Source: Alphaproteobacteria bacterium (GTDB taxonomy: Bacteria > Pseudomonadota > Alphaproteobacteria > Micropepsales > Micropepsaceae). Taken from it: a stretch of 10,037 nucleotides of DNA. This document shows, piece by piece, positions 4,165 through 10,037 of the stretch (its first letter is position 1; every line of letters starts with the position of its first letter). Made by a program: the position numbers and the translations under genes. The notes below the pieces were generated by a model that was not told the DNA's origin, did no database searches, and saw only the letters and a list, made by a program, of their open reading frames with translations. The stretch is taken from contig DMER01000114.1 of the NCBI GenBank assembly GCA_003451645.1, positions 7,715-17,751 on the forward strand. The letters run 5' to 3'.

Positions 4165-4716
4165 TTATACCGCGCGCGTGGCAGGAAGATAGTCGCCCTC
4201 ACCGGTCCTGCAGTACAAGACCTCCACAGTTTCGGATTGTGCTTCGACCGAGGCAACGACGGTGACAGGGCGACACAATTTTTCCTGCGGATCTCCCGAC
4301 TCAACTTTGACCTTTGTCAAACCTTGTGCGCCAGGTGTGGCAAGCACGGACCTGCGACGCCCGTCCACGCCCAGCCACTCCTCGCGATGCGCTTTTCCTG
4401 CCTTCAATGCCTTCATTTGAGACTCTGCCAGAAGGCGCTTGTCCTTCTCACTCTCAAATGCGAGCCAAACGCCGCAAGCCGCACCTCCGATTGCTGCGCC
4501 CAGCAAGGCGCCGGACTTTGCATTCCCGCTCCCACGGCCTGTGCTATTGCCAATGACCGCGCCCAATATGGCGCCAATTGCAACAGATCCTATGCAGCCT
4601 GCAACCTTCTCATCCGTCGTCAGAGGTCTATTCGAAGCGCAGGAGGACAGACCTACCGCCGCCACGACGAGCGCAACCAACCTTGCCTTCCTGTTCTTCC
4701 TACTAAGTACCACCAT
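4165..4716 (-). CDS. Glycine-zipper lipoprotein, 17-kDa surface-antigen-like
   Basis: This is a 183-residue predicted outer-membrane lipoprotein. The N-terminus has a basic start (RKNRKAR), a hydrophobic core and a lipobox LSSC with Cys26; the next residue is Ala, not the Asp that retains lipoproteins in the inner membrane of enterics. Residues 40-82 carry repeated GxxxG steps (GCIGSVAIGAILGAVIG, then GALLGAAIGGAACG), the two-segment glycine zipper of SlyB and rickettsial 17-kDa antigen relatives. The C-terminus has paired CR motifs (EKLCRPV and VLYCRTGEGDYLP), as in the small beta domain of 17-kDa antigens (CRxxxx...ACRxxDG.W). The ATG at 4716 has an AGGGGAG ribosome site 8 bases upstream. 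It is the last cassette gene, 42 bases after the preceding stop. Glycine-zipper lipoproteins often stabilise the envelope or insert into membranes; the exact role here is unknown. Confidence 0.75.
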   Translation of the reverse strand: MVVLSRKNRKARLVALVVAAVGLSSCASNRPLTTDEKVAGCIGSVAIGAILGAVIGNSTGRGSGNAKSGALLGAAIGGAACGVWLAFESEKDKRLLAESQMKALKAGKAHREEWLGVDGRRRSVLATPGAQGLTKVKVESGDPQEKLCRPVTVVASVEAQSETVEVLYCRTGEGDYLPATRAV

Positions 4717-4758
4717 GAGTCCAGCTCCCCTGAAACAATTCTATTGAGTTTGAAATGG

Positions 4759-6072
4759 TCAGAAATTCGCGCCGTCGACTTTGCTTCCGGTAATTGGCAT
4801 ATCTTGCCTGTTGTTTGACATGATCATCGAGGCGTCGAAGACGCGCCCGGTTAACTTCACGCCATCCGACGCCAATTCCCATTGTCGTACGCCACCAAAA
4901 GGCATTTCGGCTGCAAACTCTGCCTGTCCACCGGGCATCGGGCTCCAAGCTTGGGCAAAGCCTTCATCGTCGCTGCGATAGCTGCATGTATGAGACGACG
5001 AACAGTTAATCTGAGTGCCCGTCAATGGGGTTGAGCGGTCCGGCGAACCGCGCAATACAATCCAGGAATTTGATAAACCGCCATTACGATCGATGCCAAG
5101 TCTGACACTGACGGTTTCAGGTCCGGATGGGTACTCAACGTCACCGGTAAAGCGCACAATCTTGGTTGGCGGTAATGGCATTGTGGAGACCGAAGTATTG
5201 CTCCAAGTGACCAGGTTGGCACCCGACGCGAGAAAGAAGGCGCTGGCGTAGTCTTTCGCCAAACCTGTGTCGCTTCCCGAATTCAAAAACACATGCAATT
5301 CAGCACGGCCCAAGTCCAAGCTTGCGCTCTTGGCATCTTCGAAGCCTAGCTTTCTCGCTGCCGCGGTATCACTGACTGACCCAATCTCTGCGGCCGACAA
5401 ATTCGCCAAGAGGATTATACGAGGGATCGTACCCTCGTTCTGCAGAAAGCGGCCGGAGTTGCGAATGGACTGCAAAACCTTGGCGTCCTTGAATGGACCA
5501 CGCACGCCGCTTGCTTCCGCTGGAGCCTCCCGAGCGGCAATAATCAGTGCCTGCACCAGGCGCTGACGGAACGAGGCGGACGCGTCATTGACAGTCTGCT
5601 CGACACCGCCGTCAAAGAACTTCTCGACCGAAGTCTTTTTACTGCTCGCCACAGCTCGCTCTTCTTTGGACAACGATGGCAGGCATCCCGTAAACAAGAA
5701 CTTCGCAGAGGAGCCATCTTTCGGGAGGACGTAAACGCTTAGCTTCTCACGGAAATCCGAGTTCCCAGCATCAGTGGCGCGCGCAGGATCCCCAAATGCC
5801 AAGACCACGTCTCTTACGCCGCCATTCTTTGAACCAAATTCCGCAGCGCCTGCGATCTTCGAAAATGCCCCCTGATCAATCAGAATTACCGAATGACGCA
5901 ATGAAGCTTTGAGCCCCGGCACGGAGCAATACTGCTCCATGCGAAACTCTCGCCCGGAAGCGCTCGACGGAGGGCTTCGATCTACCCCCGCGTCACCGCT
6001 ATCACAGGCGGACAGAAGGGTTGCACATACAAGCGCGGTCAACACTAGCCTTGACGCAAGAGATGTGAACAT
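4759..6072 (-). CDS. Lipoprotein with a von Willebrand A-like fold and a C-terminal beta domain
   Basis: This is a 437-residue predicted lipoprotein. The ATG at 6072 is chosen over one 42 bases upstream: it opens a clean lipoprotein signal (hydrophobic residues 9-20, lipobox LSAC, Cys23), has a GGAG ribosome site, and starts 2 bases after the upstream stop. Asp24 follows the lipid-bearing Cys, the inner-membrane retention signal in enterics. Residues 58-290 show an alternating strand/helix pattern like a vWA domain: SVILIDQGAF (61-70), KLSVYVLP, a helix from 168, IPRIILLANLSAAE (216-229) and ELHVFLNS (258-265). The first strand ends DQGAF where MIDAS sites have DxSxS, so metal-dependent adhesion is unlikely to be conventional. 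Residues 300-437 look all-beta with close cysteines 357 and 363. I do not recognise a named family; the vWA assignment is by pattern only. Confidence 0.65.
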   Translation of the reverse strand: MFTSLASRLVLTALVCATLLSACDSGDAGVDRSPPSSASGREFRMEQYCSVPGLKASLRHSVILIDQGAFSKIAGAAEFGSKNGGVRDVVLAFGDPARATDAGNSDFREKLSVYVLPKDGSSAKFLFTGCLPSLSKEERAVASSKKTSVEKFFDGGVEQTVNDASASFRQRLVQALIIAAREAPAEASGVRGPFKDAKVLQSIRNSGRFLQNEGTIPRIILLANLSAAEIGSVSDTAAARKLGFEDAKSASLDLGRAELHVFLNSGSDTGLAKDYASAFFLASGANLVTWSNTSVSTMPLPPTKIVRFTGDVEYPSGPETVSVRLGIDRNGGLSNSWIVLRGSPDRSTPLTGTQINCSSSHTCSYRSDDEGFAQAWSPMPGGQAEFAAEMPFGGVRQWELASDGVKLTGRVFDASMIMSNNRQDMPITGSKVDGANF

Positions 6073-6074
6073 GA

Positions 6075-7373
6075 TCACCGGCTCCACGACAACCGAATTG
6101 GCATCCCGGACCAACTATTGGCGGTAACGACTGTCTCGCGAGACGCCTTGTCTTGCTCTGGTTCGTGCTGCACTAGCTTTGGCGGGCGGCTACCTTTCAC
6201 ACTCGCTCCGAGCATACGATTACGATACTCGAGCAAATTCGCGACCACCTCTTGATCCTTGGTAAGAATTGCCGCCACGCCGCTGCGCAACGCGTCGTTG
6301 CCAGGCAAGCCGTGCATTTGATCGGTTTCGCGTTTCAGTTTATCAAGGTCCACCCGTGCCCGTTCAGTCGCCTGATGAATGGGCAGATCGACATCTCGCC
6401 GCTTCAGCTTGTCCAGCACGGCCTTCTTTTTGTTCAACTGCTCAAACTTTTCTTGGAGGTCAGGGTTGGGGTCATGCGAGAAGTAGGTCAATATTGCGCC
6501 TAGGAAAAAGGCGATAAGATTTCCTAGCAACAGTCCCGAAACGGAAAGCGGCAAATTCGGCAAAGGGGAACCAATTGCCAGGGCTTCGTCGATCTTTGGG
6601 AGGAGGAAATTGTATCGCGCATAGCCGACTGCCAACAGACTAATCGTCAACAGACTGGACCCCCAAACCGCCAGCGGAAGGCCCGTGATATTCCTCTCCT
6701 TTGCATCGGGAAGATTGTAGTAGTTCCAACGCCTCCAGTACAATCCCCAGCAAAACGAAGCCCCAGCGATGCCAAATCCGACCAACAAAGTTGAACCGAG
6801 CGCCATGGCATCAGAGGAAATCAACGGCGCGCGTCGAAAGCTCTCAAAATTGATTAACGCCTCAAACACCAATATAACGGGCAAAGCAACGCCAAATTCT
6901 AAAAGCCGATTTGGTATCTTGGGATCACGGTCCTCAACCGCTCTTATGCGCTCATAATCATCTCGGCTCTTTTGAGTGTCCGCGATGAGCTGGTGGTGTC
7001 TTTGATTAAAGGTCCTCAAATGCTCACGGATGCGCTTCTCCTTATGCGCCTCGATTTTAGCGGCTTCCTTCTCGAAGAGTTTCCCTGCTGCTGATCGAAT
7101 CTTGATTTGCTTCGCACTTGCGTCCAAGGCATCGATCGCTGCACTGCGCACAGGATCGACATGCTGCATCACCCATTGACTCATTTCTGGGGTCAGGCCC
7201 TCGCAATGTGAGCCGTCGCCTGGCGCTGTCAGCGTAATACTGTCCTGCGAAACTTCCTGAGCTAATCGGCTCAAGAGCTGCTTTGACGTTGTGCCATCTA
7301 CACCAGTATCCATAGACAGGTATCGGGCTAATGCCGGCGAATGTCGTTCTCCTGGCTCATCACTTGTCGCCAC
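6075..7373 (-). CDS. Four-TM inner-membrane protein with flanking coiled coils, unknown function
   Basis: This 432-residue protein is not one I recognise. Residues 85-148 are a Lys/Glu/Arg-rich helix, probably coiled coil. Four hydrophobic spans follow: about 157-178 (LEFGVALPVILVF), 190-213, 230-256 and 274-298 (LLLGNLIAFFLGAILTYF). A second charged helix (302-352, EKFEQLNKKKAVLDKLKRR) and a Pro/basic tail come last. The Arg-rich loop YWRRW after span 2 and the even span count predict both coiled coils in the cytoplasm. It starts with GTG at 7373, supported by an AAGGGGG ribosome site 7 bases upstream that begins within the TAA stop of the preceding gene. Its stop lies 2 bases before the next start, so translation is probably coupled. 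Topology recalls signal-transducing membrane partners of OmpA-domain proteins (MotA, ExbB, ZorA), but I see no proton-channel signature of those families. Confidence 0.7.
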   Translation of the reverse strand: MATSDEPGERHSPALARYLSMDTGVDGTTSKQLLSRLAQEVSQDSITLTAPGDGSHCEGLTPEMSQWVMQHVDPVRSAAIDALDASAKQIKIRSAAGKLFEKEAAKIEAHKEKRIREHLRTFNQRHHQLIADTQKSRDDYERIRAVEDRDPKIPNRLLEFGVALPVILVFEALINFESFRRAPLISSDAMALGSTLLVGFGIAGASFCWGLYWRRWNYYNLPDAKERNITGLPLAVWGSSLLTISLLAVGYARYNFLLPKIDEALAIGSPLPNLPLSVSGLLLGNLIAFFLGAILTYFSHDPNPDLQEKFEQLNKKKAVLDKLKRRDVDLPIHQATERARVDLDKLKRETDQMHGLPGNDALRSGVAAILTKDQEVVANLLEYRNRMLGASVKGSRPPKLVQHEPEQDKASRETVVTANSWSGMPIRLSWSR

Positions 7374-7385
7374 GGCTATACCCCC

Positions 7386-8363
7386 TTAAATTCCTGCGAC
7401 GGTCGTCGCTTTTCGATTGATCGGATCAATGAGAATTTTCCGCGTGCCAACCGGGTCCACCACCATGCGCGATGGCGCCTGAGGGTCCGACTCAATGTGG
7501 GTCGTGGATGGCGTTACCTCGACTTTGCCATCGCTCGACGGCGTGACAGTTTCCCGATTCTTGGATTTCGGAATTTCGACAACAACCCGGGGCTTTGGGT
7601 CAGCATTCTTCAAGCATTTCCGTGTCTCCGCTTCACTGGAGGCGGAACAGGCATTATCGACGGATGAAGCCAAATGCGTCGCGGCAACAATCGGCTTTGG
7701 TGCAAACAAGAATTCAACACGCCGGTTGAGCGCCCAACTCTCTTCGCTTTCGCCCGCGACAAGCGGCAAGTCCTTGCCGAAGCCAACACGCCAAACACTA
7801 GCGTTGTTGATCCCACGGTCCATGATGGCTTCAGCGATCGCATTTGCCCGGCGCACCGACAAGTTGTAATTGTGTGTCTTGCTCCCACGACTGTCAGCAT
7901 GGCCAGCAACAAACAACGCAACGTCTGGCATTTCCTTGCGCATACTCTCGGCGACAATCTCCACGACCCGCAGCGCCTCTTCGCGAAGATCGGCCCTGTC
8001 GGTTTCAAAGAAGACGCGCTCAGGGAAAACCACGCGCAAGATCGGCATATTGCTGCCAAATTCCTTAGGCAGGCGCCGTGCCTCCACGTCCCCGTGCCAG
8101 AATTGAGGCGTTGCGCCTAGACCCTGCTCTGACGTCAGACGCCAAAGCCTTTTGATTCGGTCGCAATGTTCAACGAAAACAAGATCACGCCAGTCATACT
8201 GGTCGCCATCTTTCGACGCAGTCTCCAGCAGGGTTTGACAATCATACTCTGCCGGAGTCGCAGGAACCAAGGCATTTGCTTGCTTTGGCGCAAACGAAAC
8301 GAGACAGATAGCCAAAACAAACCATGTCAACTGAGTGTGCCACACCGTCGCCACCGCTACCAA
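7386..8363 (-). CDS. Exported OmpA-like peptidoglycan-binding protein
   Basis: This is a 325-residue periplasmic protein. Residues 13-31 form a signal peptide (WFVLAICLVSFAP...ANA, likely cut after Ala31). The OmpA_C domain spans about 112-220: VFFETDRADL, then HADSRGS, YNLSVRRANAI, GFGKDLP and NRRVEFLF. Asp157 and Arg172, 15 residues apart, match the pair that holds the diaminopimelate of peptidoglycan in OmpA proteins. Unlike most family members the domain is internal: a 105-residue Pro/Ser/Thr-rich tail follows. Cysteine pairs 42/67 and 239/250 may form disulfides. No ATG is available: the frame opens after a stop at 8390-8388, with TTG at 8363 and GTG at 8354 or 8345, so the start is uncertain. 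It is the first cassette gene, 12 bases before the next, and presumably anchors the complex to the cell wall. Confidence 0.8.
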   Translation of the reverse strand: MVAVATVWHTQLTWFVLAICLVSFAPKQANALVPATPAEYDCQTLLETASKDGDQYDWRDLVFVEHCDRIKRLWRLTSEQGLGATPQFWHGDVEARRLPKEFGSNMPILRVVFPERVFFETDRADLREEALRVVEIVAESMRKEMPDVALFVAGHADSRGSKTHNYNLSVRRANAIAEAIMDRGINNASVWRVGFGKDLPLVAGESEESWALNRRVEFLFAPKPIVAATHLASSVDNACSASSEAETRKCLKNADPKPRVVVEIPKSKNRETVTPSSDGKVEVTPSTTHIESDPQAPSRMVVDPVGTRKILIDPINRKATTVAGI

Positions 8364-8792: not shown

Positions 8793-8895
8793 CGGCGCCA
8801 CGGGCTTACGAAATCCTGTTGATACAAGCGATTGGGTTCCGCACGCTCTAAGTATGATTCTTGACATTGGCGGGCGCATAGAACAAAAAAAGAAC

Positions 8896-9867
8896 ATGAA
8901 ATCGCCCTGGACCCTCAACTCCATTGAAGTATGCGCTGGCGCGGGCGGCCAGGCCTTGGGGCTGGAACGGGCGGGCTTCAATCACTTGGACGTGGTCGAG
9001 ATTGATCCCTGGGCCTGCCAGACTTTGCGGGCGAACCGCAATTGGCGCGTAACGGAATGTGACCTTAAGCGCTTTGATGCACGGCCTTATCGTGGCATTG
9101 ATTTATACGCGGGCGGCTTGCCCTGTCCGCCATTTTCGGTCGCGGGGAAACAGCTGGGTGAGAGTGACGAACGCAATCTCTTCAACATTGCACTCGAACA
9201 CATCGCGGACTGCCGTCCCCGCGCGGTCATGATTGAAAATGTGAAGGGGATGTTGGATCCCCGGTTTGAGGGTTATCGCGAGACCATCAGCAGGTCCTTG
9301 CGAAAGCTTGGGTATCGTGAGGACTGGCGTCTCTTGAATGCGGCGAGTTTCGGCGTGCCGCAATTGCGGCCAAGAGTCTTGCTGATTGCCCTTCGAAATG
9401 AGCTTTCGGACCGGTTTGACTGGCCAGTCGCGAAGACGGCCTCGCCTCCAACAGTGGGTGCCGTGCTTGGTGATCTAATGGGTGCGGGTGGTTGGCCTGG
9501 TGCCGCACGTTGGGCCAAGGGCGCTAACAGGATCGCACCAACCATCGTGGGCGGGTCAAAGAAGCATGGCGGTCCTGACCTTGGGCCAACGCGGGCTCGC
9601 AAGGCATGGGCGGAGCTGGGCGTCAACGGCCTTGGTGTGACGGATCTGCCGCCGGGTCTCGATTTCCCTGTTGAGGCGCATCCCAAACTCACGGTGCGCA
9701 TGGTAGCGCGCCTGCAAGGTTTCCCAGACAATTGGCACTTTGCCGGCAAACGCACAAATGCCTATCGCCAAGTCGGCAATGCATTTCCTCCGCCCTTCGC
9801 ACAAGCAGTGGGCACGCAAATCGCGGCCGCACTTGGGGCCTCAGCGGTGAGGCAGGCGGCGGAATGA
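8896..9867 (+). CDS. DNA (cytosine-5-)-methyltransferase of a type II restriction-modification system
   Basis: This 323-residue enzyme transfers a methyl group from S-adenosylmethionine to C5 of cytosine, protecting host DNA. All main m5C motifs are present in order: I, VCAGAGGQALGLERAG (12-27); IV, GGLPCPPFS (73-81) with catalytic Cys77; VI, MIENVKG (112-118); VIII, QLRPR (156-160); IX, RMVARLQGFPDNW (268-280); X, YRQVGNAFPPPFA (290-302). Motif IV has Pro where PCQPFS is usual, a known variant. Residues about 180-265 form the variable target-recognition region; I cannot read the DNA target from it. The start at 8896 puts motif I close to the N-terminus; an in-frame ATG at 8854 adds 14 residues and neither has a strong ribosome site. 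A TATGAT at 8853-8858 could be the -10 element if 8896 is right. Its TGA overlaps the next start as ATGA. Confidence 0.9.
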   Translation: MKSPWTLNSIEVCAGAGGQALGLERAGFNHLDVVEIDPWACQTLRANRNWRVTECDLKRFDARPYRGIDLYAGGLPCPPFSVAGKQLGESDERNLFNIALEHIADCRPRAVMIENVKGMLDPRFEGYRETISRSLRKLGYREDWRLLNAASFGVPQLRPRVLLIALRNELSDRFDWPVAKTASPPTVGAVLGDLMGAGGWPGAARWAKGANRIAPTIVGGSKKHGGPDLGPTRARKAWAELGVNGLGVTDLPPGLDFPVEAHPKLTVRMVARLQGFPDNWHFAGKRTNAYRQVGNAFPPPFAQAVGTQIAAALGASAVRQAAE

Positions 9868-10037
9868 CAAAGGACGGCGGCGCAAGGGCCAAACTGCGCG
9901 CGCACTTCCTGAAAAACATCGGCCGCGTCATGGATAGTACCGAGCTTCGAGAAGCGGCTGGCGGCATTAGCGAATGGGCGAGGCGCGTCCGGGAGTTGCG
10001 AAACGAAGAGGGCTATCAAATTCTCTCGCACAATGAC
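9864..10037 (+). CDS. Probable HNH-type restriction endonuclease, N-terminal part (runs off window)
   Basis: The frame starts at the ATG at 9864, overlapping the methyltransferase stop by four bases, and stays open through the last base, giving 58 residues. The segment STELREAAGGISEWARR, then VRELRNEEGYQILSHND, matches the N-terminal helical (winged-helix-like) region I associate with HNH endonucleases encoded beside m5C methyltransferases; in those the catalytic HNH domain lies further downstream. That domain is outside the window, so the nuclease call rests on this N-terminal pattern and on the coupled methyltransferase. Translational coupling would place protective enzyme before nuclease, usual for type II systems. 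Confidence 0.7.
   Translation, partial: MTKDGGARAKLRAHFLKNIGRVMDSTELREAAGGISEWARRVRELRNEEGYQILSHND

Follow-up and report, generated by a model that had tools for sequence, protein, structure and literature searches.

The DNA analysed here (the window) is a stretch of 10,037 nucleotides on contig DMER01000114.1, from an alphaproteobacterium of the family Micropepsaceae. Four genes on its minus strand, at 4165-8363 and with gaps of 12, 2 and 42 bases, encode an OmpA-domain protein (P0004), a protein with four transmembrane (TM) segments (P0003, here TM4), a vWA-barrel lipoprotein (P0002) and a glycine-zipper lipoprotein (P0001), and are referred to as the cassette (Table 1). The coordinates and open reading frames listed for these genes in a first-pass annotation were confirmed.

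Table 1. Genes of the cassette and associated features (positions refer to the window, or to the locus whose L number is given)
Feature	Position	Strand	Remarks
OmpA-domain protein P0004	7386..8363	-	TTG start; Sec-type signal peptide (by eye); PF00691
TM4 P0003	6075..7373	-	GTG start; four TM segments; in no named family
vWA-barrel lipoprotein P0002	4759..6072	-	ATG start; LSAC lipobox; in no named family
Glycine-zipper lipoprotein P0001	4165..4716	-	LSSC lipobox; C-terminal Cys-Arg domain
C5-cytosine methyltransferase	8854..9867	+	PF00145, E 2.5e-63; PADLOC DruM2/MTase_II; divergent neighbour
Exported CFSSCA/CFSGCA protein	L002 7823-8755; L014 12066-12989; L049 12378-13220		Further copies in L050 and L052-L054

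The four families occur together more often than by chance: all 20 distinct loci have matches to every one of them, on a single strand. Loci were chosen from every match to TM4 or to the vWA protein, with distant and unrelated matches set aside, and comprised the window, three loci from genome contigs, two from the order, four from the class, two from the phylum, one from a Brevundimonas-like genus and seven plasmids. They belong to Alphaproteobacteria and to one other class of the phylum (L034). The co-occurrence expected in the first-pass annotation was thus found, though in three gene orders instead of one: OmpA-TM4-vWA-GlyZ (nine loci), GlyZ-TM4-vWA-OmpA (10) and TM4-vWA-GlyZ-x-OmpA (L004 alone). 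The vWA gene directly followed TM4 in all 20. The glycine-zipper match was divided over two frames in L051 and in L034 was limited to the later portion of the profile. Because all four families are present at every locus despite the reshuffled order, there is strong support, at the level of gene content, for the four genes being one functional unit. Pairwise distances of the four proteins were also correlated across 16 loci, with r 0.78-0.92 and a permutation p of 0.0005 in every pairing, a figure in which shared species history is not separated.

P0004 consists of a signal peptide, a conserved region with the motif EHxDR, a Pal-like OmpA domain (about residues 116-220) and a variable C-terminal tail. 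The domain was matched by Pfam OmpA (PF00691, E 1.6e-12) and by Pal in the PDB (E 5.7e-14). Asp157 and Arg172, which we take to be the counterparts of the peptidoglycan-binding pair of OmpA-type domains, were the same in all 10 relatives aligned. The glycine-zipper models of Pfam matched P0001 below their cut-offs, and its C-terminal Cys-Arg region is conserved among relatives. YiaD-type lipoproteins combine a glycine zipper with an OmpA domain, as does the cassette, which splits them over two proteins; against the YiaD family NF053611 (cut-off 175 bits) P0001 and P0004 scored 34.2 and 85.5, both under the cut-off. In L016, further glycine-zipper-like frames lie behind the glycine-zipper gene (10941-11595) and are possibly a duplication.

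For TM4, family hydropathy, loop charge and a structure model agree on four TM segments, with a long coiled coil after TM segment 4, as proposed in the first-pass annotation. Positive charge on the termini and the middle loop makes it likely that these regions are cytoplasmic; in the model, both ends of TM4 are likely to lie there. P0002 had been described as a vWA-like lipoprotein. Its lipobox and a vWA fold (about residues 50-302) backed by the predicted structure bear this out; a predicted C-terminal beta barrel, lipocalin/GID4-like (about residues 304-433), had been missed. Neither TM4 nor the vWA protein reached a cut-off in Pfam or NCBIfam or gave a convincing PADLOC match. In Pfam, P0003 had a single sub-threshold match (SLAC1, E 0.0015) and P0002 none, and a scan of 15 further TM4 and 21 further vWA family members returned stray weak matches, each in one member. 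Two of the four cassette proteins map to no described family.

The distribution of the cassette was followed by profile searches; the class and order counts below include the window's genome, and the Brevundimonas count does not. In the class, the vWA profile matched six of 385 genomes, and the TM4 profile matched 10 of 385, made up of those six together with three distant relatives and an unrelated protein. Six of 398 genomes of the phylum gave matches (four with the four-gene cassette, one distant relative and one unrelated protein). The cassette was present in 3/96 genomes of the order and in 3/121 of the Brevundimonas-like genus, Brevundimonas poindexterae (L003) among them. All three Brevundimonas copies (L003, L033 and L062) lie whole between fabG and acpP, a gap that measures 179-181 base pairs in three hand-picked species free of the cassette (L063, L066 and L067). 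This junction is a clean insertion site, at which the cassette is present or absent as a block. The seven plasmid carriers were four Rhizobium, one Sinorhizobium, one Agrobacterium and one Novosphingobium; six of the plasmids were typed as conjugative, and nif genes are present in the control stretches taken from three Rhizobium plasmids. Pattern scans of viral contigs and a tblastn search of phages with TM4 gave no match. Cassette GC content was lower than that of the flanks in 15 of 19 loci (0.548 in the window, against 0.634 in its left flank). The cassette is accessory, patchy and partly mobile, and its varying positions are not fixed housekeeping loci.

TM4 and the vWA protein form a core that, by profile comparison, is wider than the four-gene cassette and spans at least three architectures: the four-gene form, a pair and a form with a third membrane protein. 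Immediately behind each of the three distant TM4 relatives (G268, G199 and G276, at L037, L038 and L035) lies the gene of a short, exported vWA protein, and no match to the OmpA or glycine-zipper families was found in the 19-20 kb around these pairs. The two-gene and four-gene families were aligned by hhalign with Prob 99.3 for TM4 and 97.6 for vWA. A profile of the short vWA protein matched nine of 367 genomes, the three just named among them. Of the six additional loci, four (L043, L044, L045 and L047) have a TM4-like gene before the vWA gene and a third membrane protein after it; no TM4-like neighbour was seen beside the short vWA gene in L042 and L046. These three-gene relatives are linked to the core by profile comparison (Prob 96.4-99.3).

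The three-gene loci occupy about 3.5 kb each and encode a TM4-like protein, a TM-anchored vWA protein and, as the third product, a membrane protein that has a coiled-coil tail; they may be another undescribed envelope system. The G199 pair, too, has a weak match to the third protein nearby (E 5.8e-5). There (L038, 5643-10296) TM4-vWA is followed by a frame resembling nucleoside deoxyribosyltransferase/TIR by eye and by two unnamed genes, one of them weakly like the third protein.

In an alignment of 23 TM4 proteins (16 from four-gene, three from two-gene and four from three-gene loci), Glu171, Asn175 and Pro304 were present in 23/23, and Arg253 and Asp301 in 22/23. Glu171 and Asn175 sit in the first TM segment. 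The retention of charged and polar intramembrane residues across this divergence suggests a conducting or signalling role for TM4.

The cassette was compared with known envelope systems. According to PMC11890865, defence by Zorya requires the peptidoglycan-binding domain of ZorB and the cytoplasmic extension of ZorA. Zorya and the cassette alike combine an OmpA-type peptidoglycan-binding domain with an adjacent inner-membrane protein whose cytoplasmic helices are long. P0004 matched ZorB3 (E 3.5e-12) over residues 115-225 only, which is the OmpA domain, and its N-terminus resembles a cleaved signal by eye. The first-pass annotation had pointed to the Zorya, Tol-Pal and Mot folds for comparison; known folds were predicted for P0002 (vWA domain and lipocalin/GID4-like barrel). 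TM4 matched neither ZorA in PADLOC (E up to 1) nor MotA_ExbB in Pfam. Unlike Zorya, the cassette includes no Zorya effector, and ZorC/ZorD, ZorE and ZorF/ZorG were absent from the PADLOC families matched by its neighbours (best 25 of 72 for chromosomal loci, all 16 for plasmids). Identity with Zorya was rejected, the cassette being without ZorA. With Tol-Pal the cassette shares a Pal-like OmpA domain and a set of proteins at the inner membrane, periplasm and outer membrane. No TolQ, TolR, TolA or TolB was found by Pfam among the four cassette genes or the other scanned genes of the window, and identity with Tol-Pal was likewise rejected, no TolQRAB accompanying the cassette.

The nearest printed architecture is the vWA/tolQ pair (Mol Biol Evol 2025, PMC12204202), in which TM-anchored vWA proteins of unknown function are encoded beside tolQ-like motor genes and pair with a TolQ-like pentamer. 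For the first vWA/tolQ family, the authors state that no deletion phenotypes have been reported. Both arrangements pair a vWA protein with an inner-membrane protein across the envelope, whereas the vWA protein of the cassette is exported or lipidated, carries the extra barrel and has TM4, the OmpA-domain protein and the glycine-zipper protein as partners. The N-terminus of P0002 is a lipoprotein signal and not a TM helix, other vWA members have a signal peptide or lipobox (by eye), and no MotA_ExbB match, which would mark a tolQ-like motor gene, was obtained among the scanned window genes. Membership was rejected, since the cassette vWA protein has no TM anchor and there is no motor gene.

For the sensing of outer-membrane damage by TagQ and PpkA, PMC11881912 states that both an outer-membrane lipoprotein and an inner-membrane protein are needed. 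The cassette resembles TagQRST-PpkA (H1 type VI) in having these two kinds of protein, and P0001 is weakly TagQ-like (E 0.0064), but the cassette is without a kinase, ABC transporter or type VI gene. No description of this gene set was recognised among the papers listed by searches of the PMC literature, a coverage outside which most subscription papers lie. The first-pass statement that no named system has this composition thus held for Zorya, Tol-Pal and vWA/tolQ.

The genes around the cassette were scanned for a link to defence, in a small neighbour set and with a small control set. In the window, the cassette diverges from the C5-methyltransferase, which is followed by an HNH-type frame (partly masked, by eye) and a Vsr gene; of the divergent restriction-modification genes of the first-pass annotation, the methyltransferase was verified, and the HNH-type frame and Vsr gene lie beyond the window. 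This type II module covers 8854-10037 and runs on in L019 (6068-8356). The C5-methyltransferase is a neighbour of the cassette, outside its conserved parts. Among 95 chromosomal and window neighbours, the best 25 of 72 PADLOC families comprised the window's restriction-modification and Vsr genes and single matches to MzaA, mad3, RT_UG29 and a DnaG-like family. The 61 plasmid neighbours matched ZacC, ZacB, IetA, IetS and DrmD, all 16 families being seen. On the Rhizobium NXC12 and NXC14 plasmids (L053, 3297-19185; L054, 588-18863) the cassette apparently lies between IetAS and Zac-type defence genes, an arrangement on both its sides that is inferred from position, length and NCBI names. The control set (141 proteins, drawn from nine stretches at a distance of about 100 kb) matched nine PADLOC families, including mad3, mad8, AriA and a CARF-regulator model, and held no set of partner defence genes. 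Since mad3 and mad8 matched both control proteins and cassette neighbours, they were counted as background. Phage defence, as in the first-pass annotation, stays one hypothesis: among the matches listed, known defence genes lie beside the cassette at the window and at two related Rhizobium plasmids and not at most loci; the link to defence is no more than suggestive.

An exported protein with the motif CFSSCA or CFSGCA, presumably ClpP-like to judge from that motif, is encoded beside 7/20 cassettes, 0/3 two-gene loci and 0/12 control loci. It is a possible, optional fifth part of the cassette. In the four R. etli-type loci the next gene is annotated as thermonuclease family, and the copy that was inspected probably has a TM segment.

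Taken together, these results lead us to favour, tentatively, an accessory, peptidoglycan-anchored unit or complex that senses disturbance of the envelope, signals inward and probably protects the cell from attack; protection is the least certain step. The four products would likely assemble into one trans-envelope complex, to judge from their domains and gene linkage. The OmpA domain would grip peptidoglycan as the anchor, and the glycine-zipper and vWA-barrel lipoproteins, on the periplasmic side, would detect a ligand or strain. Docking of the vWA domain may take place on the two short periplasmic loops of TM4, which would respond through its intramembrane Glu171, Asn175 and Arg253, so that the cytoplasmic helices move and bring in an effector supplied by the host or by adjacent genes. 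As a use, a guard against phage or rivals would fit best. A bolder proposal, which we regard as rather doubtful, would make TM4-vWA the centre of a novel class of trans-envelope signalling systems with at least three architectures, in which the Glu-Asn-Arg residues within the membrane would link the vWA reader in the periplasm with the coiled coils in the cytoplasm; the four-gene form would then be a mobile guard against attack by phage or rivals.

Several observations weigh against the sensing and protective reading. The metal-ion site of vWA domains has the motif DxSxS, which is not kept here: P0002 has D-Q-G-A-F at this place, and D66 is retained in at least 90% of 22 members but the serines are not. 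Some relatives of the vWA protein have no lipobox, so its anchor varies. The cassette itself contains no gene for an obligatory cytoplasmic effector. The single complex from cytoplasm to outer membrane put forward in the first-pass annotation is strongly supported as one functional unit; as a physical four-protein assembly it is putative. Among the matches listed, defence genes adjoin two lineages only (the window and the two related Rhizobium plasmids), chromosomal neighbours appear mostly housekeeping-like by eye (fab genes, pnp, gmk), and the single site shared by the three Brevundimonas copies is unlike that of a fast-moving defence gene.

Some of these points would equally suit envelope upkeep, in which the cassette ties outer membrane, peptidoglycan and inner membrane together for certain niches and has no defence role. 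Three of the four products are exported, the OmpA domain is Pal-like, most chromosomal neighbourhoods lack a known defence system among the matches listed, and one site is kept in Brevundimonas; yet rarity and patchiness within one genus (3/121) and carriage on plasmids are unlike a basic envelope function, and we consider this reading unlikely. It is decidedly unlikely that the cassette is a force machine, with TM4 conducting ions or coupling to a host motor and driving the vWA protein against the outer membrane, a role that has been proposed for vWA proteins encoded next to tolQ-like genes. The conserved intramembrane Glu, Asn and Arg of TM4 and the precedent of the vWA/tolQ pairs (PMC12204202) would suit it, as would a weak MotA_ExbB match (E 0.011) of the third membrane protein of distant relatives, seen in one of three scanned. 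Against MotA, however, that protein had no hhalign support (Prob 0.5) and its ZorA-model matches fall in the coiled coil; the four-gene loci are without a motor gene, and their vWA proteins have signal peptides or lipoboxes instead of a TM anchor.

Periplasmic quality control or export, in which the vWA-barrel protein binds a substrate that the exported ClpP-like protein processes, is consistent with the GID4-like barrel fold and with that protein's occurrence beside cassettes and not controls. A common fold is no proof of function, however, and the ClpP-like gene is absent from 13/20 loci, the window among them; we judge this highly unlikely. Least probable of all is entry exclusion, in which the cassette would bar other conjugative elements at the cell surface: of the seven plasmids that carry a copy, six are typed as conjugative, and P0001 has a very weak Pfam match to TraT (E 0.47, under the cut-off), but this match lies within the glycine zipper and may be meaningless, and most copies from the genome searches are on chromosomal-looking contigs with no transfer genes noted.

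If the cassette is indeed a sensor of envelope attack, it would link periplasm to cytoplasm without any motor or kinase that can be recognised, a link open to testing through the conserved intramembrane residues. Even as a mere tether it would be an envelope system that lacks annotation. It is found on chromosomes and on conjugative plasmids, including nif plasmids of rhizobia, and its carriers include named organisms that can be grown in culture. Its invariant heart is TM4 and the vWA protein, two nameless families for which no solved relative was found.

Elsewhere in the window, a 20-nucleotide inverted repeat (1233-1252 and 1323-1342, 95% complementary) lies between NmrA-like and FMN-dependent dehydrogenase genes and may be a dispersed palindromic element.

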